Shown here: positions 16,388-35,183 of the stretch, piece after piece | Position numbering within the stretch: position 1 is the first letter of the stretch | Layout of the letters: each line of letters begins with the position of its first letter | From: Haloferax gibbonsii ATCC 33959 | GTDB taxonomy: Archaea > Halobacteriota > Halobacteria > Halobacteriales > Haloferacaceae | DNA: 39,214 nucleotides | Reading direction: 5' to 3' | Assembly: GCF_000336775.1 (NCBI RefSeq) | Contig: NZ_AOLJ01000027.1 | Location: forward strand, 90,565-129,778 | Program-made: the position numbers and the translations under genes | Notes under the pieces: model-generated | Database searches by the model: none | What the model was told of the DNA's origin: nothing | Seen by the model: only the letters and a program-made list of their open reading frames with translations

Positions 16388-18688
16388 ATGCCAGGCAATA
16401 GTAACACCCACACGGGGACAACACCAGTCGCCCGGTGGTCATTCAACGAGGGAGCCGGGGCAGAAGTCTCAGAAACTAACTCCGGAACGACTGCTGCGAT
16501 TACGTCCGTGGCCATTGAGACGAAGGACAAGCCCAATAGTTCACTACAGTGGCGTGACGGTGTTCAGAATTCCTGTCTTCTCTTTGATGGATACTCAACC
16601 AGTATCGAGACAACTCTCGACAGCGTTGGAGATACCAATGACCAACTGTCGGTCGAGGCATGGGTCGCACCTCGATCACACGGCAGTCACGGAACTGACC
16701 GGTTAGAGGCCGTCGTCAGCCAACACGCACTCTGGAACGACCAAGGGTTTGAATTCGGACTCGGGCCACACGGGTCGTGTTCGTTCCGTGTCGGGTTGGG
16801 TAGTAATACCGCCGAGGCGTCGACCGCTTCTGGGTGTGTCCCAACATACGAGTGGTCGCACATCGTCGGCGTTTTCGATGGCGACGACTCCTCTGTCTCG
16901 GTGTTCGTAAATGGTACCAAAGTTGCATCGAACGACCTCAGTGAGTCGGAACCAATATCCTATGCGGACGTATCCCTCTTGATTGGCAAGAGCAACAAAC
17001 CAACCGAAAAGGCACATCAGACTAACACGGCCGGTGGCGTCTTCGACGTCGGTATGTTCAACGGGTTGATCGACGAGCTGGCACTCTACGAGGACGCGTT
17101 GACAAAGGACCAGATAGCCTCACACTACGAGGAAATTCGCTCACAACACGATGGAGATCTGCCCAAAGCGGGAGTCAAAGAGATTGGTTTGGACCCGTCT
17201 CTGTACAGCGATGATCACCACCGTCCCGAGTACCATCTTATCGCTCCCGGGCACTGGATGAACGAACCTCACGCACCGCTGTACTACGATGGGCAGTATC
17301 ATCTGTTCTACCAGCACAACCCCAAGGGACCGTACTGGGGGAACATCCACTGGGGACATTGGGTCAGTGACGATCTCGTTCACTGGCGTCATCTCCCCGT
17401 CGCGCTCTCACCGGGACCGACTGACCTCGATCCTGATGGTATCTGGTCAGGGAACGCGACGTACAACGAGGATGGAGACCCGGTTCTGTTCTACACTGCA
17501 GGAAACATGGCGAACACGCCGGACCAAGTCGTGGCGACTGCGACACCGGCAGACCCTACCGATTCCGAACTCGTCGAGTGGGAGAAGACAAACGAGGTCA
17601 CCATTGAGAAACCACGCAGAGTCGGGCTTCGGGAGAATGATTTCCGCGACCCGTACGTCTGGCGTGAAGACGGACGGTGGCTCTGTCTCGTCGGTGCAGG
17701 GGTACGAGGCGGTGGCGGAACTGCTCTTGTGTACGAATCGAAGACTCTGGAGGAGTGGCAATTCAAAGGTCATCTCTTCCAGATTGGCCATGACAAGTAC
17801 CCCGAGCTAGGGACCGTCTGGGAACTCCCAATCCTCTTATCACTCGGGGAAGATAGCGACGGCGACGAGAAGCACGTCTTCATCATCAGTCCGGTTGGAG
17901 CGGGCGCCGACGTTGAGGTGTACTACTGGCTCGGCGAATGGGATGCGGACGACTACCGGTTCGTTCCTGACAATGAAGAACCCCAGCGAATTGACTACGG
18001 CGACTTTGGATTCACGGGGCCGAGTGCAATGCGGGACCCGGAGACGGGCCGTTGCATCCTGTTCACCATCGCTCAGGATCAGCGACGACCGCAGGACCAC
18101 TTCGACGCGGGGTGGGCGCACAACGGAGGACTCCCGCTAGAGTTGTACCTAACCGACGACGACCAACTTGGAATCGACCCGATCGAGGAACTCACCTCAT
18201 TGCGCCAAACGGAACTCCTCGACGTTTCCGATCAAACCTTGCGGTCGGCCAACGAGGAACTAATCGGGGTTGCAGGAGATACCCTGGAGATATTGCTCGA
18301 AATCGACTCAGACGGTGCATCGAGGTATGGAATCGAGCTTCGGAAGAGTCCCGACGGAGAAGAACGGACGCTCATCTACTACGACGAGGAGCGTGAGCAC
18401 ATCTACGTCCACCGCGAGGAGAACAGCAGTAACGTCGACGTTCGGTCTGGCTTGGCGAAGCGAAGCTCGCTAGTTCATAGTGGGGAGTTCGAACTGGATG
18501 GTGAGACCCTGAGACTACGCCTGTTCCTCGATAAGTCGATGGTCGAATGCTACGTCCAATCACGAAAAAGTGTTACTACCCGAGTATATCCCACCCGACC
18601 GGACGCGACCGGGCTGGCCCTCTGGGCAGACGGGGGCGTGACTGTCGAAGCGATGCAAGTCTGGGAATTGGAGGGAATCGGGCTGTAG
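16388..18688 (+). CDS. LamG-GH32 protein, no signal peptide
   Basis: 766 residues. Residues about 15-250 form a LamG/concanavalin-like lectin domain (WSFNEGAG, SVEAWVAPRSHG, HIVGVFDGDDSSVSVFVNG). GH32 starts near 275. The nucleophile motif is WMNEPHAP, with Glu293 where the usual Asp sits. RDP is intact (FRDP, 419-422), and the acid/base motif is WELP with Glu479 in place of WECP. A C-terminal beta-sandwich ends in MQVWELEG. There is no Tat or Sec signal, so it is probably cytoplasmic, unlike its relative at 35184, whose first half has the same LamG-GH32 layout. It probably acts on a beta-fructan or fructoside, but the Asp-to-Glu change leaves activity and specificity open. Confidence 0.87.
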   Translation: MPGNSNTHTGTTPVARWSFNEGAGAEVSETNSGTTAAITSVAIETKDKPNSSLQWRDGVQNSCLLFDGYSTSIETTLDSVGDTNDQLSVEAWVAPRSHGSHGTDRLEAVVSQHALWNDQGFEFGLGPHGSCSFRVGLGSNTAEASTASGCVPTYEWSHIVGVFDGDDSSVSVFVNGTKVASNDLSESEPISYADVSLLIGKSNKPTEKAHQTNTAGGVFDVGMFNGLIDELALYEDALTKDQIASHYEEIRSQHDGDLPKAGVKEIGLDPSLYSDDHHRPEYHLIAPGHWMNEPHAPLYYDGQYHLFYQHNPKGPYWGNIHWGHWVSDDLVHWRHLPVALSPGPTDLDPDGIWSGNATYNEDGDPVLFYTAGNMANTPDQVVATATPADPTDSELVEWEKTNEVTIEKPRRVGLRENDFRDPYVWREDGRWLCLVGAGVRGGGGTALVYESKTLEEWQFKGHLFQIGHDKYPELGTVWELPILLSLGEDSDGDEKHVFIISPVGAGADVEVYYWLGEWDADDYRFVPDNEEPQRIDYGDFGFTGPSAMRDPETGRCILFTIAQDQRRPQDHFDAGWAHNGGLPLELYLTDDDQLGIDPIEELTSLRQTELLDVSDQTLRSANEELIGVAGDTLEILLEIDSDGASRYGIELRKSPDGEERTLIYYDEEREHIYVHREENSSNVDVRSGLAKRSSLVHSGEFELDGETLRLRLFLDKSMVECYVQSRKSVTTRVYPTRPDATGLALWADGGVTVEAMQVWELEGIGL

Positions 18689-19705: not shown

Positions 19706-21874
19706 TCAAGGTCGTTCTGTCCGTTTGTTGGGCTCCCATACCGACGCCATCTCCCAGATTTCGAGCGACGCGCGAACATGTCCGTCGTCCGCGAAGAGAT
19801 CGACACCAACGCTGTCGTCGCGCGTGGGGTAAACCCGTGAGGTGAGACACTGCGTCCCGTTGGCGAAAATCTCGATGACAGATCGGTCTAAGAACACTTG
19901 TAGTTCGACCATACCTTGTTCGGTCAAGTCCACCGGCATCGATTGTGGACTATCATTGGCACGAGTATCGAGACTTGCTGTCGACCGATCGACGGTCAGC
20001 GTCCGGTGGAGACGGTCGTACTGAATCTGCGTTGCTTCGGAACCATCGGGTGACTGCCGGAGGATAAGCCCAAACTCGTGTGAGTCACACGGGTCGATAG
20101 TCACCTGTAGTTCCAGTGTGTCACCACTTGTTTCAATGTAGTCCGACCCGTCGGGCGTCACACGAATATCGGCGTATCCGTCGTGGCGTCCACGGAGCAG
20201 GGTTACCTCTGAGGCGGGTTCGATGATTGGGTGTGCTGTCGGCCCCGGCTTGATTCGTCGCGGGAGCGACATCGCACCGGACCACCCGGCGTCCCACTGC
20301 GCACCACGATTCCGGTCTTCCGGGAGCCAACCGAACATAACCCGTCGACCATCGTCGTCGGTAAACGACTGTGGCGCGTAGAAATTCCCGTTATCGAGCA
20401 CCCCGTGCGTGTGCGAGTCGAACTGCTGGTCGTCGTACGTGCCGACGAAGTACACCACCGTAGAGTAGTCGGAGACGTGAAGCAGGTAGTCGTCGCCGAG
20501 TGGAACGAACTCGGGACATTCCCACACTGGTCCGGTTACTCTCCAGTCACCGATATCAAGTGGACCAACGTATTCCCACTCTCGCAAGGAGTCCGACCGA
20601 AAAAGGAGTGCGGCACCCCCGATGCCAGCGATTCCAGACCCGATCAGCTGCAGCCACGATCCGTCTTCGCGCCAGACGCAGTGGTCCCGAAACTCGGCGT
20701 TCCAATCGACCGTCGAAAGGACGTCTGCTTCGGCCGGTACGCCTGTGATGACGGGGTTCTTCGGGTCGGGTTCCCACCTCCTAAGGTCATCGTCCTCACT
20801 CGTTGCGAGACACGGGAGCTGGTCCTGCCCGCTCCCTCCAGTGTACAGCACACGTGGGACACCGCCGTCATCGACGAAACAGCCGGACCAACAGCCGTCT
20901 TCGTCCGACTGACCGGGCTGTGGGGTGAGTGCAACTGGGTAGTCTTCCCAGTAGAGTAGGTCATCGCTGACAGCGTGTCCCCAGTGAATTGTGCCGTGGT
21001 ACGGCCCTGCGGGGTTGTATTGATAGAAGAGATGATAGCGACCCTCCCAGTAGACGAGCCCGTTCGGGTCGTTGAGCCAGTTCGCAGGTGGGGTGAAGTG
21101 GTAAGCGGGGCGGTGTCGTTCGTCTGGAACTGCGGAACGCATCGCGGTGAACTCGGTTCGGCCCTTTGGTCTGCCGACCGCACTGTGAGGATCCACTTCA
21201 GTGACGTACCGGAGTGCGTTCTCCGCGAGCCGCGTTGTCACGTCGTCACCTGTGGAAAACGAGAATGACTGACCGATCCCAATGACGGAGCCCGAATCGT
21301 CGCTACGAGTCCACTCGAATATCGTCTTTTGATCCGGGTGGTCGGTGTCGGTGTCGGGGTCGAACCTGGCCGCAAGTACATCGGCGTGCTGTGGTGTCCA
21401 TCGATCGTATCTCACTGATGCACTCGCTGGAGTGGAATTGACAGACACCCGAAGTGATTCATCGAACCCATCGAAAAGTGGGTGGTCAGTGAAGACTGCT
21501 GAACGGAGATACCCATCCGAATCGGGTGAGGTCGAAGCGAGTACATCTGGCTTCGTCGGTTCGATGCCGAGCCACGAAACGGCTTCCACAGCCCCGAGTG
21601 AGAGTAACAGCCCACCGCCATTATCGAGGAACGAGACGAGTGCTGAGCGAACCGCTTCAGATTCGAATTGTGGCGCTCCGTCGAGGAGCGTATCGGCGTG
21701 CCACCACAGCGCCGAGTACTCCGAGAGGTTGGCCTCGGCCAGCGAAGAGAGCCGAATCGAGGTGGCGGTACACGTCTGTCGGAGCCAATCGAGTGCGTGT
21801 GTCTGTTCAGATGAGAGCCTCCCGTTCGTCACAAATGCAATGGACTCATCTAGTACTACAGGACGTGCTGACAT
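19706..21874 (-). CDS. GH32 fructosidase with ThuA/GATase-like N-terminal domain, intracellular
   Basis: 722 residues from the ATG at 21874, which has a TATA-like TTTAATA about 25-30 nt upstream and no leader. It is a paralogue of the GH32 at 10969. Residues 1-225 form the same alpha/beta domain (YSALWWHAD, GGGLLLSLGAVEA, GIGQSFSFS). GH32 follows: WLNDPNG with nucleophile Asp269, FRDH (395-398) instead of RDP, and WECPE with acid/base Glu452. The C-terminal beta-sandwich includes VIEIFANGTQCLTSRVYP. No signal peptide, so it is cytoplasmic. It is divergent from the GH172 gene, from which a shared control region of 424 bp separates it, and may serve the CUT1 importer as the other paralogue serves the Opp-type importer. 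Confidence 0.9.
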   Translation of the reverse strand: MSARPVVLDESIAFVTNGRLSSEQTHALDWLRQTCTATSIRLSSLAEANLSEYSALWWHADTLLDGAPQFESEAVRSALVSFLDNGGGLLLSLGAVEAVSWLGIEPTKPDVLASTSPDSDGYLRSAVFTDHPLFDGFDESLRVSVNSTPASASVRYDRWTPQHADVLAARFDPDTDTDHPDQKTIFEWTRSDDSGSVIGIGQSFSFSTGDDVTTRLAENALRYVTEVDPHSAVGRPKGRTEFTAMRSAVPDERHRPAYHFTPPANWLNDPNGLVYWEGRYHLFYQYNPAGPYHGTIHWGHAVSDDLLYWEDYPVALTPQPGQSDEDGCWSGCFVDDGGVPRVLYTGGSGQDQLPCLATSEDDDLRRWEPDPKNPVITGVPAEADVLSTVDWNAEFRDHCVWREDGSWLQLIGSGIAGIGGAALLFRSDSLREWEYVGPLDIGDWRVTGPVWECPEFVPLGDDYLLHVSDYSTVVYFVGTYDDQQFDSHTHGVLDNGNFYAPQSFTDDDGRRVMFGWLPEDRNRGAQWDAGWSGAMSLPRRIKPGPTAHPIIEPASEVTLLRGRHDGYADIRVTPDGSDYIETSGDTLELQVTIDPCDSHEFGLILRQSPDGSEATQIQYDRLHRTLTVDRSTASLDTRANDSPQSMPVDLTEQGMVELQVFLDRSVIEIFANGTQCLTSRVYPTRDDSVGVDLFADDGHVRASLEIWEMASVWEPNKRTERP

Positions 21875-22298
21875 ACCACCCTCTGGTTTCGAGTGAGTAT
21901 TAAACGTTGTGCCCCGCAGAATCGTTCTCAAGACGGTTAATCTGGGTTTCACACCTGCTGTGTAGGTTGTGGAACGAGCGGTATTTTAGCACCTCATTAC
22001 AGAGTTAGCTCTGTCATGTCGGACTGATACGTGCCATTGTCCCGCTTCTATGTGTGGTGCTGCACGGGCGTACAATACAAGGAACACGGCATGTGTGAAC
22101 ATCACACCAAGTAAGGACTTAAAATATAACAATCGTTGGTAGATGACCAGGAGTCAACGACCTCGACAGCTACAGTGCTGAAATCAGTCTACTAAACGCC
22201 TCTCACTACAATTATCGACTATCGGATCCCCTCCAATCAGCCGAATTGAGAGAAATGTTTATATGTAGTTGGCTAAAACGAGAGAAGCGGGATACCGT
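21875..22298. promoter_or_regulatory. Divergent control region between GH32 and GH172
   Basis: It holds the TATA-like TATTAAA (21898-21904, read as TTTAATA on the minus strand) for GH32 and TTTATATG (22258-22265), about 35 nt before the GH172 ATG. Between them are two dyads: TTTCAC-N6-TGTG at 21947-21965, about 45-60 bp upstream of the GH32 TATA-like box, and GTGTGA-ACA-TCACAC at 22093-22107, a perfect 6-bp-arm palindrome roughly midway between the two genes. Confidence 0.5.
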
Positions 22299-23387
22299 AT
22301 GCAAACAGGCTTCGGACTAGACAGCATTGCACAGGTTATAGAAGAAGAACAGAGTCGGTCGATCACCGCTGAGAACCCGAGCGGTGCGGTCGGTGCCGGT
22401 GGACAAGCGTCGAGCAACCTCGGCCCCGGTCGAAAAGGGAGCCCCTGTATCGACAACATCGCTCCCGGAGAGACGGTTACGCTCGCCGAGATCGACGGCC
22501 CGGGCGTTATTCGCCACCTCTGGTTCACCGTCTTCGACGAGTCGGACGTCAGCGAGTACGTGTTCCGCGACCTCGTCCTGCGGATGTACTGGGACGACGA
22601 AGACGAGCCGTCAGTTGAGGTCCCCTTTGGCGACTTCTTCTGTAACGGCCTGGCCGAACGGTGTGAGATCGAATCGATGCCCGTCGTATGCGTCCCGGAC
22701 ATCGGGTTCAACTGTTATTTCCCGATGCCGTTTCGCGACCACGCGAAGATTACCATCGAATCAGAACACCCGACCGACATCGCGCCGTTCTTCTACCAGA
22801 TCGACTATTCGTTGGTTCCGGAACTCCCGAAAGACACGGGCTACTTCCACGCGCAGTGGCGGCGTGAGAACCCGACAACCAAGGGAGTTGACTTCACGAT
22901 CGTCGACGATATCGAGGGCGCGGGGCAGTACGTCGGGACGTATCTTGCGTGGACCGCGCTTTCGGGGTACTGGTACGGCGAGGGCGAGGTCAAGTTCTAC
23001 ATCGACGGTGACGACGAGTTCCCCACAATTTGCGGAACCGGAACCGAAGACTACGTCGGCGGCGCGTGGGGCTATGACGATTCCGACTACGGCGGACCGA
23101 AGACTTACTCGACGGCGTTCATGGGATACCCCTTCCACGACACGGGTAACGGACCCGACGGCCACGGTCGACCCCCAAGTCACGGCATGTATCGATGGCA
23201 CATCCCCGACCCGATTCGTTTCACGGAGGACCTCCGCGTTGAGGTCCAGCAGATCGGAGATCATCCCCAGACTCACACGTACTTCGAGCGGTCCGACGAC
23301 GTGTCTGCTGTCTCGTACTGGTACCAGAAAGAACCGCACAACAGCTTCCCCGAGTTCCCCGACCGAGAGGAACGCATCCCCCGATAA
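22299..23387 (+). CDS. GH172 family protein (DUF2961), possible difructose dianhydride or alpha-fructofuranoside hydrolase
   Basis: 362 residues from the ATG at 22299 (an upstream TTG at 22269 is less likely, being almost on the TATA box). The sequence is typical DUF2961: GPGVIRHLWFT, an expected W-Y-rich core, FYIDGDDEFP and ICGTGTEDYVGGAWGY. DUF2961 is now GH172. The first studied member converts inulobiose and difructose dianhydride I, and others cleave alpha-D-arabinofuranosides, using two glutamates about 20 residues apart. Here Glu250 of GTGTEDY and Glu228 or Glu230 of GEGEVKF are the candidates. No signal peptide, so the reaction would be intracellular, after import by the CUT1 system that follows. 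The fructan setting supports a fructose-containing substrate, by inference. Confidence 0.85.
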   Translation: MQTGFGLDSIAQVIEEEQSRSITAENPSGAVGAGGQASSNLGPGRKGSPCIDNIAPGETVTLAEIDGPGVIRHLWFTVFDESDVSEYVFRDLVLRMYWDDEDEPSVEVPFGDFFCNGLAERCEIESMPVVCVPDIGFNCYFPMPFRDHAKITIESEHPTDIAPFFYQIDYSLVPELPKDTGYFHAQWRRENPTTKGVDFTIVDDIEGAGQYVGTYLAWTALSGYWYGEGEVKFYIDGDDEFPTICGTGTEDYVGGAWGYDDSDYGGPKTYSTAFMGYPFHDTGNGPDGHGRPPSHGMYRWHIPDPIRFTEDLRVEVQQIGDHPQTHTYFERSDDVSAVSYWYQKEPHNSFPEFPDREERIPR

Positions 23388-23519
23388 CGCCGCCGACCCT
23401 GCGTCTGTCGAGCCATAGTCAGACCACCACACACCCACCCAAGCGGCCGTTCTTTGGAGTCGTGAGAACATACACGGGTGGAGACTTACTTTTCGCTGCA
23501 CTACTAAGTACAGGCATTA

Positions 23520-23536
23520 GTGAGTGCGGGGCTCAC
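23520..23536. promoter_or_regulatory. GTGAG-N7-CTCAC dyad between GH172 and the CUT1 operon
   Basis: Five-base arms around a G-rich centre, about 100 bp before the binding-protein gene. No T-run follows, so an operator is at least as likely as a terminator. Confidence 0.3.
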
Positions 23537-23633
23537 ACTCTCGCCTTCACATTGATTCGACGGTTCGGATATCGACATTCGTGACCAGTATCCACAACAT
23601 TTATGATGTATGTTGTAAATTGACATAGTGGAT

Positions 23634-25145
23634 ATGCTCGAAGACAGCAGCAACGCTAGTAGCGTGAACACTCACACCGCGATTCCGCGCCGTTCGTTTC
23701 TCGCCACGGTCGGTACCGCGGGGGTTACGTCAGCGCTAGCCGGTTGTACTGGCGGTGCGGGCGAATCAGAAACGACGACTGGAACGACGAAATCATCGAC
23801 TGACGCGTCCGGAAAGACGGTCATCAAGTGGGCAGTCTATCCGTGGATCGCGGACAAGATGCCAGAACTCCGGCAGGCGCTGTGGGACGCTGGTCTCTCC
23901 GAAGATATCTACCTCGAACATCAAGATCTGCCGGGGACCGCCCCCGGCGATATCCGCTCTCAGTATCAGCAGTGGTTATCCTCGGGGAGAACCGAACCGG
24001 ACATTCTCGCGGCGGACACGGCGTTCACGATTCCATTCGTCGCACAGGAGCAGTTCCTGAACCTGAGCGAGAACCTTCCCTCGGAGAAACTCGACGTCGT
24101 CACGGAAAACTACGCCTCACAGCTCTTCCCGACTGTTCGGTCGTCAGACGGTGACTTCTATGGGATTCCGTTCTCCACCGACGTTCCCGGGCTGCTCTAC
24201 CGAAAAGACCTGGTGACCGAGGCCGGATACGACCCCGAGGGGGAGAACTGGGCACAGAACTCGATGACGTGGAAGCGCTTTTCCGAAATCGTCGCCGACA
24301 CGCAACAACGGACTGGGACCGAACACGGGTTCGTGTTTCAGGCGAAAGCCTACGAGGGTCTCTCTGCGTGTAACTTCAACGAGTGGCTGACCAGTTTCGG
24401 CGGCGCGTTCTTCGGTGGCCGTGAGAACCTCTTTGGCCCCGTCGGTAAGCGGCCGATCACGGTCGACGAGAGTCCGGTTCTGGATAGTCTCAGGATGATT
24501 CGAACGTTCATCCACGGACAGGACGACGAACAGTCGCTGGACGGCTACACGGGCGGCATCTCGCCGAGACAGGTGCTCCAGTTCACCGAACCCGAGTCTC
24601 GAACGGTATTCGCCAACGGCAATAGCGTCGCACTTCGCGCGTGGCCGCAGGCGTGGCAAACGTCGGGCTCGGAGGAAAACTACGGGACGGACCTCGGCGT
24701 GATGCCCATCCCCTCGGGCGTCTCAGAAGCCCAGGCGAAGAACGATGGGACCGGCGGCATCGGCCGGAGTTTCATCGGCGGCTACTCGAACCACATCAAC
24801 CCACACTCGAAGAAGATCGACGCCGCGGTCGAAGTCCTCACCCACATGATCGGGAACGTCGAGTTCCGTTACCACCTTTTCAACGCGTCGGTCGTCCCGC
24901 CGAACCTCAGTATGCTCGATACTGAGCGCTTCCAGAACGCGCCGGTCTTGGGCCGATACACGGACGTAATCAAAATCCACGCTCAACGCGGGATACCGCG
25001 TCCTGCGACGATCGCGTGGAATCCCGAATCTGCGAAGATCGCATCGCAGGTGAATTCGACACTCGCACGAGATGCGACCCCAGCGAAGGCGATGGGGACG
25101 TTGAAGTCGCAACTCGCAGATATCGAAGAGAGATTGAGCCAATAA
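23634..25145 (+). CDS. CUT1-type sugar-binding lipoprotein (SBP family 1)
   Basis: About 503 residues from the ATG at 23634; a GTG at 23628 in the same frame is also possible, and a TATA-like ACATTTATG at about 23597 fits either. The N-terminus has a Tat motif (PRRSFLATVG) and lipobox (LAGC; Cys38 from the ATG), then a Thr/Ser/Gly-rich linker. The rest is a family 1 extracellular solute-binding protein (IKWAVYPWIADKMPELRQAL, YGIPFSTDVPGLLYRKDLV), typical of oligosaccharide importers. It should capture sugar at the cell surface for the permeases encoded next. Confidence 0.9.
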   Translation: MLEDSSNASSVNTHTAIPRRSFLATVGTAGVTSALAGCTGGAGESETTTGTTKSSTDASGKTVIKWAVYPWIADKMPELRQALWDAGLSEDIYLEHQDLPGTAPGDIRSQYQQWLSSGRTEPDILAADTAFTIPFVAQEQFLNLSENLPSEKLDVVTENYASQLFPTVRSSDGDFYGIPFSTDVPGLLYRKDLVTEAGYDPEGENWAQNSMTWKRFSEIVADTQQRTGTEHGFVFQAKAYEGLSACNFNEWLTSFGGAFFGGRENLFGPVGKRPITVDESPVLDSLRMIRTFIHGQDDEQSLDGYTGGISPRQVLQFTEPESRTVFANGNSVALRAWPQAWQTSGSEENYGTDLGVMPIPSGVSEAQAKNDGTGGIGRSFIGGYSNHINPHSKKIDAAVEVLTHMIGNVEFRYHLFNASVVPPNLSMLDTERFQNAPVLGRYTDVIKIHAQRGIPRPATIAWNPESAKIASQVNSTLARDATPAKAMGTLKSQLADIEERLSQ

Positions 25146-25225
25146 CAGTGTTAGATGCAAACACACACATGATGGAACTGAAAAATGAATAATAAGTCAA
25201 TCGACGGAGAACAACACAGACACTC

Positions 25226-26191
25226 ATGAGCACGAAACTGGACTCCGTACCGTGGCGTCGCCCGCTGAGAGCGGTGACGCTCCGTATTGAGCAACTTTCA
25301 GACACGCAGTTCGTGTACGTACTGCTGTCTCCCGTCTTCTTGCTCCTAGCGGTGGTGGCGTTCTGGCCCATCGTAAATACGTTCGAGTTATCGCTTCACG
25401 CCGATAGTATCGTCTCTCCCGACCCGATTGGGGAGTTCGCTGGGTTCACGAATTACGTCGACCTCTTTACCGGAGGACTCGACGCGCTGATGCCACGGCC
25501 GTTCGTGAGCCTCTCGCAACCGCTCAAGAGCGCGCTTATCGTGACGGTCGTCTTCGCGGGCGTGAGCGTCTCTATAGAGACGCTTCTCGGGTTCGCTCAG
25601 GCACTGATCCTCAACGAAGAGTTTCGTGGGCGACGATGGGTCAGGCTCGTACTGATCCTTCCGTGGGCGGTCCCCATCGTCATCTTCGGAACGATGTTCT
25701 ACCTTATGTTCAACTCGACCGTGGGGTTCGGCTCGGAAATCCTGCACGGGTTGGGGCTCATTTCGGCGACCCCGTTCACCAGCACACAGGACTCGCTCCT
25801 GTTATTGATTATCGCGGACATCTGGAAGACGACGCCCTTCATGGTGTTACTGATCTTGGCGGGGCTACAGAGCATTAACCGTGACCTATACCAAGTCGCG
25901 GAAGTCGCGGGTGCATCACGATGGCAGCGATTCAGGCACGTCACGCTGCCACTTGTGGCACCCATTCTCGGGGTCGCAATCCTTTTCAGACTAATCCAAG
26001 CACTTCGGGTGTACGGCGTCATCGAGGTCATGGTTGGGTGTAATACTGTCCCTTCGCTGTCCTGTATGGTCGTCAGTACGTTCCAATCGCGGTACTACGG
26101 GACGTCGGCGACGATTGCGTTCACCACCGCAGCGCTCATCGGACTCGTCACGCTCGGATACTTCGCGTTTACCAAGTCGGAGGTCGTCTGA
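25226..26191 (+). CDS. CUT1 sugar ABC permease (MalF-like)
   Basis: 321 residues, six expected membrane helices, first at about residues 30-50 (YVLLSPVFLLLAVVAFWPIV). The EAA loop that docks the ATPase is AEVAGASRWQRFRHVTLPL. It follows the binding-protein gene by 80 bp and overlaps the next permease gene at TGATG, showing translational coupling. Its partner is the MalG-like protein. Confidence 0.9.
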   Translation: MSTKLDSVPWRRPLRAVTLRIEQLSDTQFVYVLLSPVFLLLAVVAFWPIVNTFELSLHADSIVSPDPIGEFAGFTNYVDLFTGGLDALMPRPFVSLSQPLKSALIVTVVFAGVSVSIETLLGFAQALILNEEFRGRRWVRLVLILPWAVPIVIFGTMFYLMFNSTVGFGSEILHGLGLISATPFTSTQDSLLLLIIADIWKTTPFMVLLILAGLQSINRDLYQVAEVAGASRWQRFRHVTLPLVAPILGVAILFRLIQALRVYGVIEVMVGCNTVPSLSCMVVSTFQSRYYGTSATIAFTTAALIGLVTLGYFAFTKSEVV

Positions 26192-27105
26192 TGTTCCATC
26201 GAATCAACACGACGCTCGAACAGCTCTCTGAGACTGCACTCAGGAGCCCGGCAGACGCCAACCGGCTCGTCTTCACTGGTGGAACGATCGTGTTCGTCCT
26301 GACGACGCTGTTTCCCTTCTACTGGCTTTTCGTCCTCGCACTCACGCCGAACGAACTCATATCGAATATGGGGCTGGTTCCGAAGGGCTACAACCTCGCC
26401 GTCTTCGCGCAGGTGTTTCAGGAACTCCCGCTTCACCGCTACATCTTCAACAGCGTCCTCATCTCTTTGATGGTCACGGCGGTCGTGATATCGCTGGGGA
26501 GTGTCGCGGGCTACGCGTTCGGTCGATACGAATTCAGCGGGAAGCGCCCACTGATGCTGATCATCCTCGTTATCTCCTACTTCCCTCCCGCGGCGTTCCT
26601 GCTGCCACTCTTTCGGCTTCTGACCGGGAGCATGACGATTCTAGGCATCCAGACGCCCGACTTCTACAACACGCCACTCGGCGTCGCGTTCCCTCTGAGC
26701 GCACTCACGCTCCCGTTTGCCATCTTCGTCCTCACGACGTTTTACAGTCAGATTCCGGACGGACTCGAAGACGCGGCCCGAATCGAAGGGACGACTCGGT
26801 TGGGTGCGCTCTACAGGGTCATCATGCCGCTTTCGCTCCCCGGACTCACCACTGTTGGAGTCCTGACCTTCATCACGGTGTACAACGAGTTCTTCTTCTC
26901 GTTCCTCATGACCGACGGGAGCGCGGACCATTGGTCCCCACTCGTATGGGGAATCTCGTCGATCATCTTCGAACAGCAGTTCACCACCCCCTACAACCTG
27001 CTCGCCGCAGCAAGTATCATCGGGGTCTTTCCGATCGCGGTACTCGTCCTGTTCGCACAAGAAAAGATCGTCAGCGGCCTAACCGCTGGCGCACTCAAGG
27101 AGTAA
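26191..27105 (+). CDS. CUT1 sugar ABC permease (MalG-like)
   Basis: 304 residues. The first helix (IVFVLTTLFPFYWLFVLALT) and the EAA loop EDAARIEGTTRLGALYRVIMP, with a Pro-rich descent after it, are typical MalG. The ATG overlaps the stop of the MalF-like gene, and GGAGGT about 7 nt before it is a strong ribosome binding site inside the preceding gene. It forms the channel with the MalF-like protein. Confidence 0.9.
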   Translation: MFHRINTTLEQLSETALRSPADANRLVFTGGTIVFVLTTLFPFYWLFVLALTPNELISNMGLVPKGYNLAVFAQVFQELPLHRYIFNSVLISLMVTAVVISLGSVAGYAFGRYEFSGKRPLMLIILVISYFPPAAFLLPLFRLLTGSMTILGIQTPDFYNTPLGVAFPLSALTLPFAIFVLTTFYSQIPDGLEDAARIEGTTRLGALYRVIMPLSLPGLTTVGVLTFITVYNEFFFSFLMTDGSADHWSPLVWGISSIIFEQQFTTPYNLLAAASIIGVFPIAVLVLFAQEKIVSGLTAGALKE

Positions 27106-27108
27106 CTC

Positions 27109-28257
27109 ATGGGAGAAATCCAACTCAACGACGTGACAAAGCGCTACGGTGACGTAACGGCAGTCGACAACATGAATCTCGACCTCGACGACGGCGAGTT
27201 CATCTGTCTCGTCGGTCCATCCGGTTGTGGGAAGTCGACGACAATGGAGATTATCGCGGGGCTGACGATGCCCACAGACGGCAGCATCTTGATTTCGAAG
27301 CAGGACGTGACGAACCTGCCACCGAAAGACCGAGGAATCGCGATGGTATTTCAGAACATCGCGCTGTTCCCGCATATGGATGTCTACGACAACATCAGCT
27401 TCGGACTCCGCCTCCGTAACTACGAGAAGGAGGAAATCGACCGCCGCGTCGAGAGAGCGTCCGACATCGTCCAGTTAGAGGGAATGCTCGATCGGATGCC
27501 TGAAGAGATGTCCGGTGGGCAACGCCAGCGCGTTGCTATTGCCCGGGCTATCGTTCGGAACCCGGACGTGTTCCTGATGGATGAACCGCTGGCGAACTTA
27601 GACGCGAAGCTTCGCGTCCACATGCGGACCGAACTCCAGCGTCTACATAAAGAACTGGAGACGACAATCGTTTACGTCACGCATGACCAAGCGGAGGCGA
27701 TGACGATGTCCGACCGCATCGCGGTCATCGATTCGGGTGAACTCCAACAGATCGACCCGCCGCTCACGTGTTACAACGAACCGTCCAACATGTTCGTCGC
27801 GGGCTTCATCGGCTCACCATCGATGAACTTCGTCGAAGGAACGATCACCGAACACGGCTTCGAGGCCGAGAATTTCGACGTCGAGTTCGAACCCAGTCAC
27901 CTGGACGTCTCACTTGGTGACGACATCACCCTTGGTGTCCGTCCCGAGGACGTCTACCCAATCGACGCTGTGCACTCGCTCGCTCGTCCGACGGAAGAAA
28001 TCGCGGCTGTGAGCGACGTATTAGAACCGATGGGTGACGAGGTATTCGTGTATTTAAAACTCGAAGACGACGTTCAGACTCAAATCGAAGAGACAGTGTC
28101 GAACGACCAACTGTTGATGAGCGTCGAACCCGACAGTTTGATTCAGGAAGACGAACCGGTAACCGTGGTCCTCGACCGAAGTAAGGTCCATCTCTTCGAT
28201 TCGGTGTCGGGCACTGCAATCTGCCACGGATTGACCCCTGCGATATCGCAGCGATAA
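27109..28257 (+). CDS. CUT1 sugar ABC ATPase (MalK/UgpC-like)
   Basis: 382 residues, the usual length. Walker A is GPSGCGKST, the Q loop is VFQNIALFPH, the signature is MSGGQRQRV, Walker B is VFLMDEPLANLD and the switch His follows in VYVTHDQAEAMT. The last third is the TOBE/MDR-like regulatory part (TLGVRPEDVYP). GGAG about 7 nt before the ATG gives the ribosome binding site, within 3 bp of the end of the MalG-like gene. It energises the CUT1 importer. Confidence 0.93.
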   Translation: MGEIQLNDVTKRYGDVTAVDNMNLDLDDGEFICLVGPSGCGKSTTMEIIAGLTMPTDGSILISKQDVTNLPPKDRGIAMVFQNIALFPHMDVYDNISFGLRLRNYEKEEIDRRVERASDIVQLEGMLDRMPEEMSGGQRQRVAIARAIVRNPDVFLMDEPLANLDAKLRVHMRTELQRLHKELETTIVYVTHDQAEAMTMSDRIAVIDSGELQQIDPPLTCYNEPSNMFVAGFIGSPSMNFVEGTITEHGFEAENFDVEFEPSHLDVSLGDDITLGVRPEDVYPIDAVHSLARPTEEIAAVSDVLEPMGDEVFVYLKLEDDVQTQIEETVSNDQLLMSVEPDSLIQEDEPVTVVLDRSKVHLFDSVSGTAICHGLTPAISQR

Positions 28258-28378: not shown

Positions 28379-30619
28379 TCATTCACTCGATGCCCCGGGT
28401 TCGGCACTATCATACGTGGCTATCGCCTCGCGAAGCTCCGCTTCCGTCGGCTCGCGCTCGTATCGAGTAAAGAAGTCTGCGACGGCGTTTGCGACGACAA
28501 GAGACGGACCATCATCAAGTCCGGCCATCTCCGCCACTGCAAAGCCACCGGCGAAGTAGTTCTCTGCGTTTTTCATCACCACGGAGTCGTCGGCGATTGG
28601 CGTTTCGACGACCGTCGTCTCGGCGTGCGGCGTCGTGAGAATCGCCTCATGGGGCGTGTGCACGACGAATCGTGCGATATCGAGCCGTTTGCAGACGTTC
28701 TCAGTCATCCGAACGAGCGAATTCGTAGTGTCTTCATCGAACAGGCGCGCGTAGCGGGCGACCTGTCGCCAGGTCGCGAACAGTGTCACTGGAACTGTCT
28801 CGCTGAACGCCGAGAGGGATGTAATTCCGGCTGGGAACCTCGTGTCGGAGAGGCGTGTTGTATCTCCAGACATGAAATACACCTGTTCCGGGGGCGATTC
28901 GAGTTTCGGCCACACCTCTGTTCGTATCCCGTCGAGAACCGTCGGGAGGCGCGGAAACGACGCCCATACGCCGATGCTCACATGGGTCGCGTCGTCGAAA
29001 ATCTCGATGAGTGTTCGCACCGGGACCGACTCACAGAGCGACTCCCAGTCTAAGGTTGAATGAACTCCGCCCTCGCTCAGTACGACTTTTCCATCGGTAA
29101 ACTGTACGAGATCCCCCCGAGACGGCTCACCGATCGAAACGAGTCGCTGGTCTGGGAACCGTTCACGGAATTCGTGGAGGAGCGGCTGGCCGTACATTCC
29201 GACGAAGGTCACGTCGTTTCCGAGCGTGGCGGGGACGCCACCGGTGTTGACGCTGTGACCCCCCGCGATGGCGGCTGTCTCAACCCACTCCACGAATGGC
29301 GACTGCGTCGCGGTGTCGGCCTGACCGAGGGCCTCTCTGAGCGCCTCGAAGTCGTTCATCGGTTTGTACGAGTCGGGGCCGGTCCGTTCCGCGACGATTT
29401 GTTTCATGTGGTCGATCGCTCCGTCGAACCCGACCGCGAAAGTTCCGCCACCGAACGACGTGGGCAGCGACTCACGGCACTCACTGAGGTGTCGCTTTGT
29501 CCCGTCGGAGAGCCGTTGGTACGGCGAGTCCATTGAGGGACCATACAGAGTCAATCGGCGCGCTTCGTACTCCTCAGACGTTGTCTTCCACCCGCCAACG
29601 GTAGCCGTGCGGTTGACTCCGTCATCGGTCGGAAGTTCGACTTCGATATGCGCGCGGGTGTCGTACTGCGAGTAGTAATAATCAATCACAGTCCCTCGAA
29701 GATGAACCGCTTCACCAGTATCCGTGTCGTATCCGTCGAATTCGAGTTCGAACGATTCGAGTGGTCGGGTTCGGGCCGCGGCTCGTAAATCGTCGAGACA
29801 GTTGCGTATTCGGAGGTACGTTTCGGGGAAGACGAGTTGAGTGTCGTCGTCCGGTGCTGCGATGGGGGTCGAAAGTGGCCAGACAGAATCCGCGAGAAAC
29901 CGGTCGAACAGCAAGGCGAGTTCCGAATTGGTAATGTGATACCCCATGGGCTCCGACACAGCGTGGCTCGTAAACGACCCCGTCCAAAAGAACCCCTTTT
30001 TTCTGTCGGCTGAGACGACGAACGGTTCCTCGCTCGCGACACCGCGAATCGTTTCTGCTAACGAATGATCCTCCTCGGAGAGGACCCGGTGCTCATTGGA
30101 GAGTTCACCGTCTGACAGTCCCGACAGGACGAGGTTTGTCTGAACGTCGGTATCGCGAGGGAGGACCTCCCGAAGCAGTGAGAGCGATCCTCGAGGTGCG
30201 AGAACGAACAGACTATACTCAGCCGAATTGATGACGCGCTTCAGATATTTTTTGATGCCTACGTTGCTCGTGAACGTGCTCACCCCGCCTTCGACCTCAT
30301 CGACTACTTGGTGAAGCTCATCGAGAATCGCTTCCGTGTTTTCGATCCGCTCACGGATCGGTGAGAGGACTTCAGATGGGTCAACTGCGTAGGCCTCTTT
30401 CGGATACCCGTCGACGACTTTCACGAAACCGCGCGTGCGGAGTGTTTGAATAACGTCGTAGGTGCGTTGCTGCGGGACGCCGCTCGATTCGGCAACGCTC
30501 GACATGGATTGACGTCCACCGCGGACGAGGGCAAGATAAACATCGGTTTCGTACGGTGATAAGCCGACGTGCTCCTCAAGTACCGTGCTCAAGTTATTCT
30601 CGCTTATGTCTCCGGTCAT
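28379..30619 (-). CDS. TrmB-family regulator fused to a degenerate PfkB-like domain (second copy)
   Basis: 746 residues from the ATG at 30619; the open frame extends 49 codons upstream, but those residues are not TrmB-like. The layout repeats that of the protein at 2571: winged helix (MSSVAESSGVPQQRTYDVIQ), linker and TrmB sensor, beta-rich TrmB C-terminal domain (LEFDGYDTDTGEAV, TATVGGW), then a kinase-like domain (FAVGFDGAIDH, GGHSVNTGGVPATLGNDV). The segment matching GAGDAFTAGF is NAENYFAGGF, with Asn687 in place of the catalytic Asp, so phosphoryl transfer is unlikely. It converges with the CUT1 operon (121 bp apart). It probably senses a sugar and controls neighbouring fructan genes, by inference. 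Confidence 0.85.
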   Translation of the reverse strand: MTGDISENNLSTVLEEHVGLSPYETDVYLALVRGGRQSMSSVAESSGVPQQRTYDVIQTLRTRGFVKVVDGYPKEAYAVDPSEVLSPIRERIENTEAILDELHQVVDEVEGGVSTFTSNVGIKKYLKRVINSAEYSLFVLAPRGSLSLLREVLPRDTDVQTNLVLSGLSDGELSNEHRVLSEEDHSLAETIRGVASEEPFVVSADRKKGFFWTGSFTSHAVSEPMGYHITNSELALLFDRFLADSVWPLSTPIAAPDDDTQLVFPETYLRIRNCLDDLRAAARTRPLESFELEFDGYDTDTGEAVHLRGTVIDYYYSQYDTRAHIEVELPTDDGVNRTATVGGWKTTSEEYEARRLTLYGPSMDSPYQRLSDGTKRHLSECRESLPTSFGGGTFAVGFDGAIDHMKQIVAERTGPDSYKPMNDFEALREALGQADTATQSPFVEWVETAAIAGGHSVNTGGVPATLGNDVTFVGMYGQPLLHEFRERFPDQRLVSIGEPSRGDLVQFTDGKVVLSEGGVHSTLDWESLCESVPVRTLIEIFDDATHVSIGVWASFPRLPTVLDGIRTEVWPKLESPPEQVYFMSGDTTRLSDTRFPAGITSLSAFSETVPVTLFATWRQVARYARLFDEDTTNSLVRMTENVCKRLDIARFVVHTPHEAILTTPHAETTVVETPIADDSVVMKNAENYFAGGFAVAEMAGLDDGPSLVVANAVADFFTRYEREPTEAELREAIATYDSAEPGASSE

Positions 30620-30814
30620 GGCTGAGGGTTCTTCTACACCACAATGAGTGTATGGGACGGTTCCAACAACACTACTGAGCGAAATCAAGAACGGTCGATT
30701 TGAATGTGTGACTTGCTCGTCATTGTCTGTTTGACTAGTTTTCCTCCGGTGCAAGTACACAGACACTACGACACATCGTTGTTTAGATGAAGAGACTCAG
30801 TCAGTATGAGGAGT

Positions 30815-31561: not shown

Positions 31562-32959
31562 CTATTTCGGTCCGTTGCCACGGGAGCGCGCACCGACAGA
31601 TGCGGGGAATTGTCCGTCTTGGAGTTCTGTCGTGACACTCGTCTCGGTACCGTCGATCTGGAGTTTGAGACTCGGAGCGAGGGTTCCGCCGAACGCCTCC
31701 TTCAGTTCTTCGCCGTAGAGTCCGAGCGTATCGACGTCTTGGAAGTTCACGAAGCTCTCAACGATACCGTCTTTGCCGTGCGGCATTGCGAGCCACGAAT
31801 ACGTCTGGAACGGCGCTTCCTCCGGGTTAGCGACGACGAGACTGCTCCCGTTGAGCGGCTCCATATCGCTGTCGTAGAGGCCGTCAGCCGCGAACCCGTG
31901 AAGCGCTTCCGGACCCGGCGGCTTACCTTCCTTCCGGAATCTACCGCCCTCGCTCCAGAGCTGAGGCGCGTAGGTGAACTCGTGAGTGATAAAGAAGAGG
32001 TACCACTTGTCCTCGTGGAAGATGAAGTGAGGCCGCTCAGTCTGCTGGCTCACACCGACCGCCTCGAAGATCGGCGGCATCAGCTTCCACTCGGTGAGCT
32101 CGTCGTTCATCGCCTTCGCCGCACCGATGTTACCGTTGTAGTTCAGCGGATTGGTGGGATCGTCGTTTGCCGTCGGCGTGTTCCCCTCGAAAATCATCCA
32201 ATCCTCGCCCGTTTCGGGATGCGTGAAGTACCAAGGGTCGCGGAACGCGGTGATGATCCCACTGGAGTTTTCGAGCTTTTCATACATCTCGCCGTCGGCT
32301 TCGGCGAGGATGTGGTGGGAATCGGATTCGGTGATATGAACGTCCTGCGGGCCGGTTTCGATAGTAGCACCTTTCGCGAGGGCAAGGCGCTGACGTGCTT
32401 CGGGAAGCGCCTCCGCCGCGGTGTAGAAGTGGTAGATCTGCTCTTCGTCTTGGTCGTACATCGCAGACCCGGCCCACGTCTGGTTCCCGAGGAAAGCGTC
32501 TTCGTCGAAGACTTCGCCGCCGAACTGCCATCCCTTCGAGCCTTCGCTCTTGCCGGTGCGCGAGTAGAAGTATCCGACGCGTGCGTAGTTGTGGCGGTCT
32601 CCAGGGACGTTGATCTCAGGTCTGGTCTTGTCGGCAACCAGTGAGAAAATGATCTGATAACCGTCAATGACTGCGATCGAGCCGTCGCGGTTCCGGAGCG
32701 GCCACGTGTCCCAGACCCAGTACCCCGCTTCCTCGGCAATCTGGGTCGGGTCTTCGTCCAGATAAGGGGCAGTGTTTTCGTCCGTGACTTCAATCTCGTT
32801 GACCATCTCTTCGGTCCACTGAGCCGGCTCTTGCACTTCGACCGCTGCTGCGGAGTCGCTCGCTGCTCCGATACCGACTGTAGCGGCGACACCGAGTGCA
32901 CCGGTCGTTTGGAGGAACTTACGACGCCCAAACGTACGCTTGGAGTTGTCTTCCGTCAT
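31562..32959 (-). CDS. Tat-exported GH68 levansucrase
   Basis: 465 residues from the ATG at 32959, chosen because TATTTATC on the minus strand (32987-32994) lies about 28 nt upstream and because it places the Tat motif (GRRKFLQTTG, 11-20) near the N-terminus; there is no lipobox. GH68 triad: nucleophile Asp84 in VWDTWPL, transition-state Asp241 in FRDPWYF and acid/base Glu308 in TERPHF. Such enzymes transfer the fructosyl unit of sucrose to build levan or short fructans, or to water, releasing glucose. It is secreted, so sucrose would be used outside the cell. It lies 213 bp after its paralogue, from which a separate A/T-rich promoter divides it. Confidence 0.92.
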   Translation of the reverse strand: MTEDNSKRTFGRRKFLQTTGALGVAATVGIGAASDSAAAVEVQEPAQWTEEMVNEIEVTDENTAPYLDEDPTQIAEEAGYWVWDTWPLRNRDGSIAVIDGYQIIFSLVADKTRPEINVPGDRHNYARVGYFYSRTGKSEGSKGWQFGGEVFDEDAFLGNQTWAGSAMYDQDEEQIYHFYTAAEALPEARQRLALAKGATIETGPQDVHITESDSHHILAEADGEMYEKLENSSGIITAFRDPWYFTHPETGEDWMIFEGNTPTANDDPTNPLNYNGNIGAAKAMNDELTEWKLMPPIFEAVGVSQQTERPHFIFHEDKWYLFFITHEFTYAPQLWSEGGRFRKEGKPPGPEALHGFAADGLYDSDMEPLNGSSLVVANPEEAPFQTYSWLAMPHGKDGIVESFVNFQDVDTLGLYGEELKEAFGGTLAPSLKLQIDGTETSVTTELQDGQFPASVGARSRGNGPK

Positions 32960-33172
32960 TGCAACTCGATGTAGGACAGTCGTATAGATAAATATTTCCA
33001 TGTTCTAAAATATAATATTATACTAACAACAAGTATAAAATTAGTATAGATGGCACTGGTCGGCTGAACACGAACGTCCCGTGGATCGATGCCGGATTCG
33101 ATACGGAACCTGAGCGATTTGGACGGGGAGTCTACGGAGTGCCCGAACCAGTTCTCGCGATCCGCGGGAGTC

Positions 33173-34531
33173 TCAGCGTGATTGCTTCGGCCCTTTGCCC
33201 GAAGAACCACCCGAGGGCAAGAAGTGGCCGTCGTTGAACTCCGCGACGATTCGTGTCTCGGTACCCTCAAGCTGGAGTTTCAAACTGGGTGCGAGCGTTC
33301 CACCGAAGAGTTCCTTCTGTTCTTCTGGTGGGAGATAACCGACCTCATCGAGGCTGATGGAACCGCGAGAGGTGTCATCGAGACCTCGGAAGTTCTCGAA
33401 ACTCTCTACCAGTGCGTTGTCGCCTTGGGGCATCACGAGCCACGAATAGGCCTGGAACGGCGCTTCTTCGGGGTTCGCGATGACCAGCCCCCCCTCGTTG
33501 AGCGGTTCGTAGTCGCCATACATTGAGTCACTCACGAACCCGTACAGGCCGTCGGGACCATCGAGTCCGGGTGCAAAGGTAAACTTGTGACTGATGGTAA
33601 AGAGATACCACTTCCCGTCGTTGAAGACGAAGTGCGGACGTTCCAGTTGCTGGTTGGTTCCAATCGCCTCCAGCACAGGCGGCAGCAGCTCCCACTCGGT
33701 CAACTCGTCGTTCGTGGCCCGCATGACGCCGATGTTCCCGTTGAAGCTCTGAGGGTTACCAGGGTCTCTGCTTCCCGTCGGGGTGTTTGCCTCGAACACG
33801 ACGAAGTCCTCGCCTGTCTCGGGGTGTTGGAAGTACCAAGGGTCACGGAACGCGTAGACAATGCCTTGTTCCCGGGACTGCTCCAGGGTCTGATACAGCT
33901 CACCGTCAGGCGTTCCCATGATCACGTGTTCTTGCTCACCGGTCAGCTCGACGCCCTGTGGCCCAGTTTCGATAGACGAACCGATTGCGAGCGCGGGACG
34001 CTGTCGAAACTCCGGGAACGAGCTGACGGCAGTGTAGAAATGGTAGATCTGTTCTTCGCCTTGGTCGTACATCGCTGAACCGGCCCACTGATGGTGGCCG
34101 AGCGGTGCCTCGAACGCCTGCCCACCCTCTTGCCACGTCTGGCCGTCCCGTGAGTAGAAGTACCGGATGGTTGCTTCGTTGTGGCGGGCACCTGGAACGA
34201 GGTCATCGGACGCAGTTAGCGAGAAGACGATCTGCCAGCCGTTGATCTTGACGATCGAACCGTCGCGGTTCCGGAGCGGCCACGTGTCCCAAATCCAGTA
34301 GTCGTCGGAGATGGATTCGGAGTTCTCTTCGATGAGCGGTGCGGTAGTGTCGTTGGTCAACGTGATGTTCGCTGCCTCTGCGCGCGTCCACTGGTCGGCG
34401 TCGCTCGTCTCGACGGCAGCTACAGAACCACTCGCCGACAAGAGACCGAGGCCAGCAAGGCCTAAGCCCGCACTGGTCTTTAGAAACTGTCTTCTGTTCG
34501 TTCCCGTCGAACTGTCTTGGTTTGATACCAC
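33173..34531 (-). CDS. Tat-exported GH68 levansucrase (second copy)
   Basis: 452 residues from the GTG at 34531; TTTATT on the minus strand (34557-34562) about 28 nt upstream fits a leaderless start. Tat motif NRRQFLKTS (12-20), hydrophobic stretch, and an A-x-A-type cleavage region (SVAAVE, about 36-41). Triad: Asp82 (IWDTWPL), Asp230 (FRDPWYF), Glu297 (LERPHF). It resembles the downstream copy along its whole length, so tandem duplication is likely. The copies differ in loops (for example GRFRKEGKPPG is absent here), which may change product size. It is divergent from the giant GH32-lectin gene. Confidence 0.92.
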   Translation of the reverse strand: MVSNQDSSTGTNRRQFLKTSAGLGLAGLGLLSASGSVAAVETSDADQWTRAEAANITLTNDTTAPLIEENSESISDDYWIWDTWPLRNRDGSIVKINGWQIVFSLTASDDLVPGARHNEATIRYFYSRDGQTWQEGGQAFEAPLGHHQWAGSAMYDQGEEQIYHFYTAVSSFPEFRQRPALAIGSSIETGPQGVELTGEQEHVIMGTPDGELYQTLEQSREQGIVYAFRDPWYFQHPETGEDFVVFEANTPTGSRDPGNPQSFNGNIGVMRATNDELTEWELLPPVLEAIGTNQQLERPHFVFNDGKWYLFTISHKFTFAPGLDGPDGLYGFVSDSMYGDYEPLNEGGLVIANPEEAPFQAYSWLVMPQGDNALVESFENFRGLDDTSRGSISLDEVGYLPPEEQKELFGGTLAPSLKLQLEGTETRIVAEFNDGHFLPSGGSSGKGPKQSR

Positions 34532-35183
34532 AGATTGGTTGATTTACCACATGTTGAATAAACTTCTGGCCGAGATAATCGTTATAGAACGTATATAAAT
34601 TAAACAGTTCGAGAGAGAAAGCACGGATGTCGTGGTGGGTAAATTGAGTAGACTTTAATTTTGAATCGAAGTGCCATCAGTCGAAACTGCGCTCGGTCCA
34701 CACGTCACTAAATACTCTTGTGACGGTGATAAAAATGCTAGTGAGAAGTTCATTCATTGAATGATTACAGTCACCATAATAATCGAATATTCTCATTACA
34801 TCCCTAAATTTGTAATGCTATATATGTGGCTCGGGGGCTCGTCTACAAACGGATAAATTAGTTAAGCACGAAACGGCCGTGATTTATTTATCTGAGTAGC
34901 TGTCCAATCTTCATAGCGAATGAAAAAACTCAGATCGGATTTATTCATTCGTGGTGACAACCAAACCCAGAACGGTCACCCACAGATGTTCCTAGTTGGT
35001 CGAGTTGACAGCGGCACTCAGCCTAGCTAACAGTATCTGATCCGCCGAGAAGAACCATAGTTACTTTTGAACGAATACGTTAGACTCCGGACGAGGAATT
35101 CGTACTGATTCTACCCACCATATGGAATACCATGAATAAACTTATATGGATAATGATTAAATTGGTAGCGAGTGGATAGACAC
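34532..35183. promoter_or_regulatory. Divergent control region between levansucrase and giant GH32 genes
   Basis: About 650 bp, A/T-rich, no gene. TTTATT for the levansucrase lies at 34557-34562 and GATTAAATT (35155-35163), about 26 nt before the ATG at 35184, is the likely TATA box of the giant gene; CTTATATGG at 35141-35149 is an alternative. I find no copy of the TTTCAC-N6-TGTG pattern here, so this pair may be controlled differently from the import genes. GGCACT...CTAGCTAAC near 35014 is only loosely like an IS6 end. Confidence 0.45.

Follow-up and report, generated by a model that had tools for sequence, protein, structure and literature searches.

We found that a 39,214-nucleotide window of the haloarchaeon Haloferax gibbonsii ATCC 33959 (bases 90565-129778 of contig C27; genome 4.06 Mb) encodes a glycoside hydrolase family 172 (GH172) enzyme ahead of a complete CUT1 sugar importer, and we predict, with about even confidence, that this enzyme is an alpha-D-fructofuranosidase fed by its own importer. 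This is the best of the explanations that we weighed, with an exo-alpha-D-arabinofuranosidase as the main rival, a synthase/hydrolase of difructose dianhydride I (DFA I) less likely and an incidental adjacency of enzyme and importer least likely. A first-pass annotation had placed a GH172 gene directly before a CUT1 importer and divergent from an intracellular GH32 gene, a layout borne out by the full-length PF11175 match, the complete importer and the GH32 protein lacking a signal peptide. Its designation of the region as a fructan locus likewise holds, as profile searches of the window recovered GH32, GH68, PfkB kinase and TrmB-ketohexokinase genes.

The GH172 Enzyme and Its Active Site

The GH172 gene (22299-23387, + strand) is present in a single copy in the genome and encodes a protein of 362 aa, counted from an ATG (with an in-frame TTG at 22269), which has no signal peptide and matches the DUF2961 model PF11175 with 305 bits (cut-off 27) over model positions 1-235 of 235. 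In a PDB search its best solved relatives are 8ic8 (the exo-alpha-D-arabinofuranosidase ExoMA1), 7v1v (the alpha-D-fructofuranosidase alphaFFase1), 4kq7 and 8ah3. A double jelly-roll fold is supported for its AlphaFold model (mean predicted local distance difference test score 90.8) by a template-modelling (TM) score of 0.89 to 8ic8 and by weak matches to double jelly-roll capsid proteins. In alignment, W225, E228, E250, D251 and W257 correspond to W267, E270, E291, D292 and W298 of alphaFFase1, which would make E250 the nucleophile and E228 the acid/base. The -1 subsite residues of alphaFFase1 are all matched except Tyr187, which is replaced by Phe; the Y187F variant of alphaFFase1 retains 90% activity on p-nitrophenyl alpha-D-arabinofuranoside (pNP-alpha-D-Araf) and 31% on inulobiose (PMC8605356).

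The choice between fructose and arabinose has been assigned to a single gatekeeper position, at which the small Gly299 of alphaFFase1 admits the C1 hydroxymethyl of fructose and Asn253 of ExoMA1 blocks fructose (PMC10509167). The window GH172 aligns Gly258 at the position of Gly299 and does not show the ExoMA1-type Asn. We regard this Gly as suggestive of fructose specificity and not diagnostic of it, because the fructose-linked bacterial relatives carry Ser or Ala instead. The +1 subsite points the other way with regard to DFA I. In alphaFFase1, Glu85 and Lys147 of this subsite are required for action on inulobiose and not on pNP-alpha-D-Araf, and mutants of either keep less than 5% of the activity on inulobiose (PMC8605356). 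The loop bearing Lys147 is shortened in the window enzyme, and alphaFFase1 residues 62-98 (37 residues, including Glu85) are represented by about 10 residues, as judged by the length of the stretch, which is short throughout the clade of the window enzyme. Thus, with Gly258 present and both the Lys147 loop and the Glu85 stretch lost, the -1 site appears to fit fructose and the DFA I-type +1 site to be absent.

The first-pass annotation had proposed cyclic difructose or another alpha-fructofuranoside as the substrate. The latter part stands on the Gly gatekeeper, the GH32 and fructokinase neighbours (see below) and the alphaFFase1-like layout; DFA I specifically is not supported, because the window enzyme lacks the +1-subsite parts and has a D-arabinofuranosidase as its closest solved relative. 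An enzyme of the alphaFFase1 kind, by which imported DFA I would be opened to inulobiose and then split by GH32 into two fructoses, would agree with the fructan setting, the Gly gatekeeper and a gene set matching BBDE_2039-2043 of Bifidobacterium dentium (GH172, GH32 and an ATP-binding cassette (ABC) importer), but given the shortened +1 elements and the distance of alphaFFase1 in the tree, we consider it improbable and do not predict a Bifidobacterium-type DFA I synthase/hydrolase.

The CUT1 Importer

The importer begins 240 bp downstream of the GH172 gene and comprises four tightly packed genes on the + strand. These encode a solute-binding lipoprotein (SBP; 23628-25145; PF01547/PF13416), with a twin-arginine motif and lipobox at its N-terminus (RRSFLATVG...LAGC), a MalF-like permease (25226-26191; PF00528 BPD_transp_1, with weak NCBIfam MalF/UgpA-type matches), a MalG-like permease (26191-27105; PF00528 BPD_transp_1) and a MalK/UgpC-type ATPase (27109-28257; PF00005 and PF17912 OB_MalK). 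The ATPase scores 419 and 376 bits against the UgpC and MalK models, under their curated cut-offs, and displays GVRPED, in agreement with the CUT1 motif G[IV]RPE[DH] (PMC11519228). The solved relatives of the SBP in the PDB search are distant MalE/maltose-type matches only, and a choice of substrate on their basis was dropped.

In Haloprofundus halobius, a GH172 orthologue (69% identity) again lies beside an orthologous importer, the SBP of which is 49% identical to that of the window, a closer match than any other SBP in 391 haloarchaeal genomes. Because this orthologous pair recurs despite different flanks, the pairing of GH172 with the CUT1 importer is, on this comparison, beyond chance. 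It could be argued that the two are functionally separate and that the importer carries a common sugar: with 240 bp between them, GH172 and SBP need not share a promoter, the SBP family is present in 266 of the 391 genomes, and most of the remaining GH172 genes in haloarchaea lack an adjacent CUT1 importer. The recurrence in Haloprofundus and the CUT1-GH172 operons of Paenibacillus, Blautia and Pseudarthrobacter, as well as those of Rhizobium and Bifidobacterium on the distant alphaFFase1 side of the tree, make such an incidental adjacency very unlikely.

Phylogeny and Gene Neighborhoods of Bacterial Relatives

In a maximum-likelihood tree of 96 proteins, whose long branches make the outer joins unsure, ten haloarchaeal GH172 proteins form one clade (99/97) beside 65 bacterial proteins, mostly from Bacillota. 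The window enzyme pairs with that of Haloprofundus (99/92) and belongs to a wider clade of haloarchaea, Bacillota and some Actinomycetota, whereas ExoMA1 lies in a separate clade of 17 (97/94) and alphaFFase1 is far removed, split off by a 100/100 branch. Since the tree sets it apart from both, the window GH172 is placed in a third GH172 clade, in which we found no characterised member.

We scanned the neighborhoods of 77 bacterial GH172 loci and found GH32 genes within 10 kb at 12 of them. The number of loci with GH32 per 100 kb scanned climbs about 12-fold on approaching GH172 (0.44 at 7.5-10 kb, 0.8 at 5-7.5 kb, 1.0 at 2.5-5 kb, 3.0 at 1-2.5 kb and 5.4 at 0-1 kb), and the GH32-bearing loci are scattered over the tree (Kribbella, Diplocloster, other Lachnospiraceae, Bifidobacterium and Paenibacillus piri). 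GH32 is also the top Pfam family (10) among the 93 nearest non-transport neighbours, with regulators next; the 25 neighbour families listed hold neither GH183 nor any arabinan or arabinofuranosidase family except GH43 (2), whose model also matched one GH32 protein weakly as a second match. Kinases that best fit fructokinase models lie beside GH172 in Enterococcus, Vagococcus, Mesobacillus, Liquorilactobacillus, Bacillus, Eubacterium and Pseudarthrobacter, those of the last three genera being PfkB kinases, and two of these neighbours (Enterococcus raffinosus and Liquorilactobacillus hordei) pass the curated ScrK cut-off. This recurrence of GH32 and fructokinase neighbours favours fructose as the predicted product of the clade's bacterial members.

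Several observations on these relatives stand apart from this argument. The setting of GH172 in the water-kefir bacterium L. hordei, together with a mannose-family phosphotransferase system (PTS) and a fructokinase, points to a phosphorylated fructoside as its likely substrate there. GH172 genes are borne on 42 Klebsiella plasmid records, in one of which, a conjugative plasmid, the gene adjoins an oligosaccharide transporter of the major facilitator superfamily and a LacI regulator. On Pseudarthrobacter pACHL02, an unknown 449-aa protein encoded in a sugar cluster close to GH172 (locus coordinates 11594-12943) has a 47% identical homologue in the haloarchaeon QS_4_62_28. As a possible GH91 enzyme of difructose dianhydride III, we considered a hypothetical protein encoded 10 kb away from GH172 on pACHL02 and rejected it, as it had no PDB match.

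Haloarchaeal Neighborhoods and the Arabinofuranosidase Alternative

GH172 is rare among haloarchaea, occurring in 2 of the 170 family genomes and 6 of the 391 class genomes, and looks like a patchy, mobile gene; named copies lie on plasmids in Haloprofundus, Halomontanus and Halocatena, and further ones were found in Halococcus morrhuae and Halorussus salinisoli. Outside the window genome its neighborhoods are mixed and mostly non-fructan. The Haloprofundus gene, the nearest relative and one with a Cys gatekeeper, lies beside an oxidative sugar-acid cassette (IclR, a short-chain dehydrogenase/reductase, a lactonase-like amidohydrolase and a sugar-acid dehydratase) and not beside fructan genes, with a standalone ketohexokinase homologue 6.6 kb away. 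Those of Halomontanus and Halocatena neighbour sulfatases, GH78, GH88 or GH3, and in one haloarchaeon GH172 adjoins an arabinofuranosidase-like gene. A protein of 617 aa secreted by the twin-arginine pathway and encoded beside the Haloprofundus importer gives a sub-threshold DUF4185/GH183 match (28 bits) and is possibly an archaeal relative of endo-D-arabinanases. On whether GH172 is conserved with arabinan rather than fructan genes, a question raised by the first-pass annotation, the lineages divide: the bacteria keep GH32 and fructokinases, and the other haloarchaea present mostly non-fructan loci.

Because of these non-fructan loci, an exo-alpha-D-arabinofuranosidase like ExoMA1 retains an appreciable, though clearly lower, probability. 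By this account, the importer would bring in D-arabinose oligosaccharides from the glycans of other microbes, and the GH172 gene would owe its place in a fructan island to chance plasmid shuffling. ExoMA1 is indeed the closest solved structure, but it lies in another clade and has the Asn gatekeeper. The Haloprofundus locus, with its orthologous importer, sugar-acid cassette and sub-threshold GH183 match, and the arabinofuranosidase-like neighbour in the one haloarchaeon also speak for it; against it, the window genome has no GH183 (PF13810) match in a profile search and no close relative of the Haloprofundus dehydratase (best 39%), and the bacterial neighbours within the clade are GH32 and fructokinases. 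Relatives of that dehydratase occur in five of the six GH172-bearing haloarchaea versus 136 of 391 overall (35%), a co-occurrence with a probability of about 0.02 by a simple binomial, which is weak because the family is common; we accordingly set the dehydratase aside as proof of D-arabinose use.

A TrmB Regulator with a Degenerate Ketohexokinase Domain

Adjacent to the importer is a gene that fuses a TrmB regulator with a ketohexokinase-like domain (28379-30766, - strand; PF01978, PF11495 and PF25270). Standalone ketohexokinases, including one elsewhere in the window genome, end in GDHFNAG; in its place the importer-adjacent fusion aligns AENYFAGG, with the conserved kinase Asp changed to Asn, and a comparable fusion near GH172 in QS_4_62_28 aligns Glu at this position. 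The Asp is retained in fusions away from GH172, namely a second one in the window (2571-4859, + strand), as aligned with the standalone enzymes, and one that another genome encodes close to GH32 genes. A TrmB protein whose fused kinase domain lacks the catalytic Asp suggests a fructose sensor. In QS_4_62_28, the genes for GH172, MalK and the TrmB fusion stand in a row with no GH32 nearby, and about 5 kb from GH172 is a gene for a fructosamine kinase (locus coordinates 16103-17134). The Gly gatekeeper is found in exactly two of the ten haloarchaeal GH172 proteins, those of the window and QS_4_62_28, which are also the two loci with a TrmB-ketohexokinase gene in the GH172 gene group; by alignment, seven of the other eight carry Cys and one carries Ala. 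A simple count puts the probability of this coincidence at 1 in 45, the window case not having been picked at random. A TrmB-like palindrome, TACT-N-AGTA, was dropped as a shared operator, as none of its six matches in the window lies upstream of GH172, GH32 or SBP.

On a more tentative and rather doubtful footing, we posit that the haloarchaeal and Bacillota proteins constitute a third GH172 subfamily specialised in alpha-D-fructofuranosides other than DFA I, and that in haloarchaea these serve an import module under a TrmB regulator with a catalytically dead ketohexokinase as its fructose sensor; the pairing of this regulator with the Gly pocket would have arisen twice, in the window genome and in QS_4_62_28.

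Proposed Function and Its Assessment

We propose that a small alpha-D-fructofuranoside, or a mixed alpha/beta fructo-oligosaccharide, enters through the CUT1 importer from the surroundings of a haloarchaeon that would both make and degrade fructan. The cytoplasmic GH172 would then split the alpha-D-fructofuranosyl bond by a retaining mechanism, with Glu250 as nucleophile and Glu228 as acid/base, in a pocket probably shared between two subunits as in its solved relatives. The divergent GH32 would cut the remaining beta-fructofuranosyl bonds, the released fructose would enter a ketohexokinase or fructokinase route, and the TrmB protein with the degenerate ketohexokinase domain would sense fructose or the substrate and control the module. 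The analysis establishes the genes, their family, the fold, catalytic residues and clade of the enzyme, its neighborhoods, the Gly gatekeeper and the lost kinase Asp; the substrate, transport and regulation of the module are inferred.

The alpha-D-fructofuranosidase reading is thus supported, and DFA I specifically is not, because the clade's bacterial neighbours are GH32 and fructokinases, the Gly gatekeeper is kept and the +1-subsite loop and insertion are lost. Several observations weigh against it. The sequence match to ExoMA1 (285 bits) exceeds that to alphaFFase1 (161 bits), as does the Foldseek TM score of the model (0.89 to 8ic8 versus 0.76 to 7v1v), and every characterised GH172, alphaFFase1 included, also cleaves alpha-D-arabinofuranosides. 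The sugar-acid setting of the Haloprofundus gene and the Ser or Ala gatekeepers of the fructose-linked bacterial relatives count on the same side. Further, we know of no abundant natural alpha-fructofuranoside in brines, and no enzyme able to make one was found in a search that did not cover GH91.

Other Features of the Fructan Island

The divergent GH32 beta-fructofuranosidase (19706-21952, - strand; PF00251 and PF08244) has no evident signal peptide and best matches the sucrose-6-phosphate hydrolase 7vco in the PDB. It is separated from GH172 by 346 bp (21953-22298), which on reading the sequence probably holds divergent promoters, with TTTATA about 40 bp upstream of the GH172 ATG. Outside the core module, the island includes a PfkB sugar kinase (5326-6279, + strand), for which the top NCBIfam model is fructokinase (185 bits, under the curated cut-off), two adjacent GH68 fructosyltransferase genes (PF02435) at 31562-33001 and 33173-34531 (span 31562-34531, - strand) and an oligopeptide-type importer with a family-5 SBP. 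Three complete GH32 genes lie within the window, in addition to a tandem-GH32 gene that runs past its end. The latter is a single frame (35172-39214 in the window, ending at 39251) with a twin-arginine start, a LamG-like region, two complete tandem GH32 units, the second closest to exo-inulinase structures, and an apparent ricin-type end, near which is one undetermined base. To the right of the island (locus coordinates 5894-14950), reading by eye revealed two genes for Orc1/Cdc6-like ATPases and one resembling a transposase gene, so that contig C27 probably represents a plasmid or a second replicon.

Significance and Comparison with Known Systems

The first-pass annotation regarded such a system as not described for archaea. 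This holds for function, as we found none described in the literature consulted for an archaeal GH172, and not for the genes themselves: archaeal DUF2961 genes have already been counted (PMC8812541), and haloarchaeal copies carry the NCBI label "glycoside hydrolase family 172 protein". If correct, the alpha-D-fructofuranosidase reading would provide the first archaeal alpha-fructosidase known to us. It would also show that sugars with alpha-linked fructose genuinely serve as carbon sources in brines, an environment in which haloarchaea produce fructans as well. A large GH172 clade without characterised members, common among the Lachnospiraceae of the gut and the Paenibacillus of soil, would thereby gain a function, and the gatekeeper position would offer a simple residue-based test of fructose versus arabinose specificity.

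Among known systems, that of D-arabinan degradation includes the Dysgonomonas gadei and Nocardia D-arabinofuranosidases (PMC10115798, PDB 8ah3), which share the GH172 family with the window enzyme but act on D-arabinan, the solved Dysgonomonas protein being more distant (28-29% identity). ExoMA1 of Microbacterium arabinogalactanolyticum (MIAR_33200; PMC10509167, PDB 8ic8) is the closest solved relative (42% identity by structural alignment, TM 0.89), and its cluster likewise has a putative ABC importer; it differs in its Asn gatekeeper, its separate clade and its neighbours, GH183, GH116 and D-arabinose isomerase/kinase. The mannitol/sorbitol system of Haloarcula hispanica (PMC11519228) resembles the window module in its haloarchaeal CUT1 importer and in passing fructose to a ketohexokinase, but has dehydrogenases in place of a glycosidase and a standalone active ketohexokinase. 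The CUT1-GH172 operons of the sister clade in Paenibacillus, Cohnella, Bacillus and Lachnospiraceae (about 47-60% identity), with which the PTS-GH172-ScrK operon on a plasmid of L. hordei is grouped, include many with importer, GH32 or fructokinase neighbours; they are uncharacterised and, unlike the window module, have a Ser or Ala gatekeeper, and their importers are not orthologous to that of the window. The alphaFFase1 (BBDE_2040) locus of B. dentium, home of the GH172 founder (PMC8605356, PDB 7v1v), shares the layout of GH172 and GH32, both without signal peptide, and an ABC importer, along with the catalytic residues and the Gly gatekeeper, whereas the window enzyme is archaeal, distant in the tree, devoid of the +1 stretch and loop and of the long C-terminal helix, and accompanied by a TrmB-ketohexokinase regulator.

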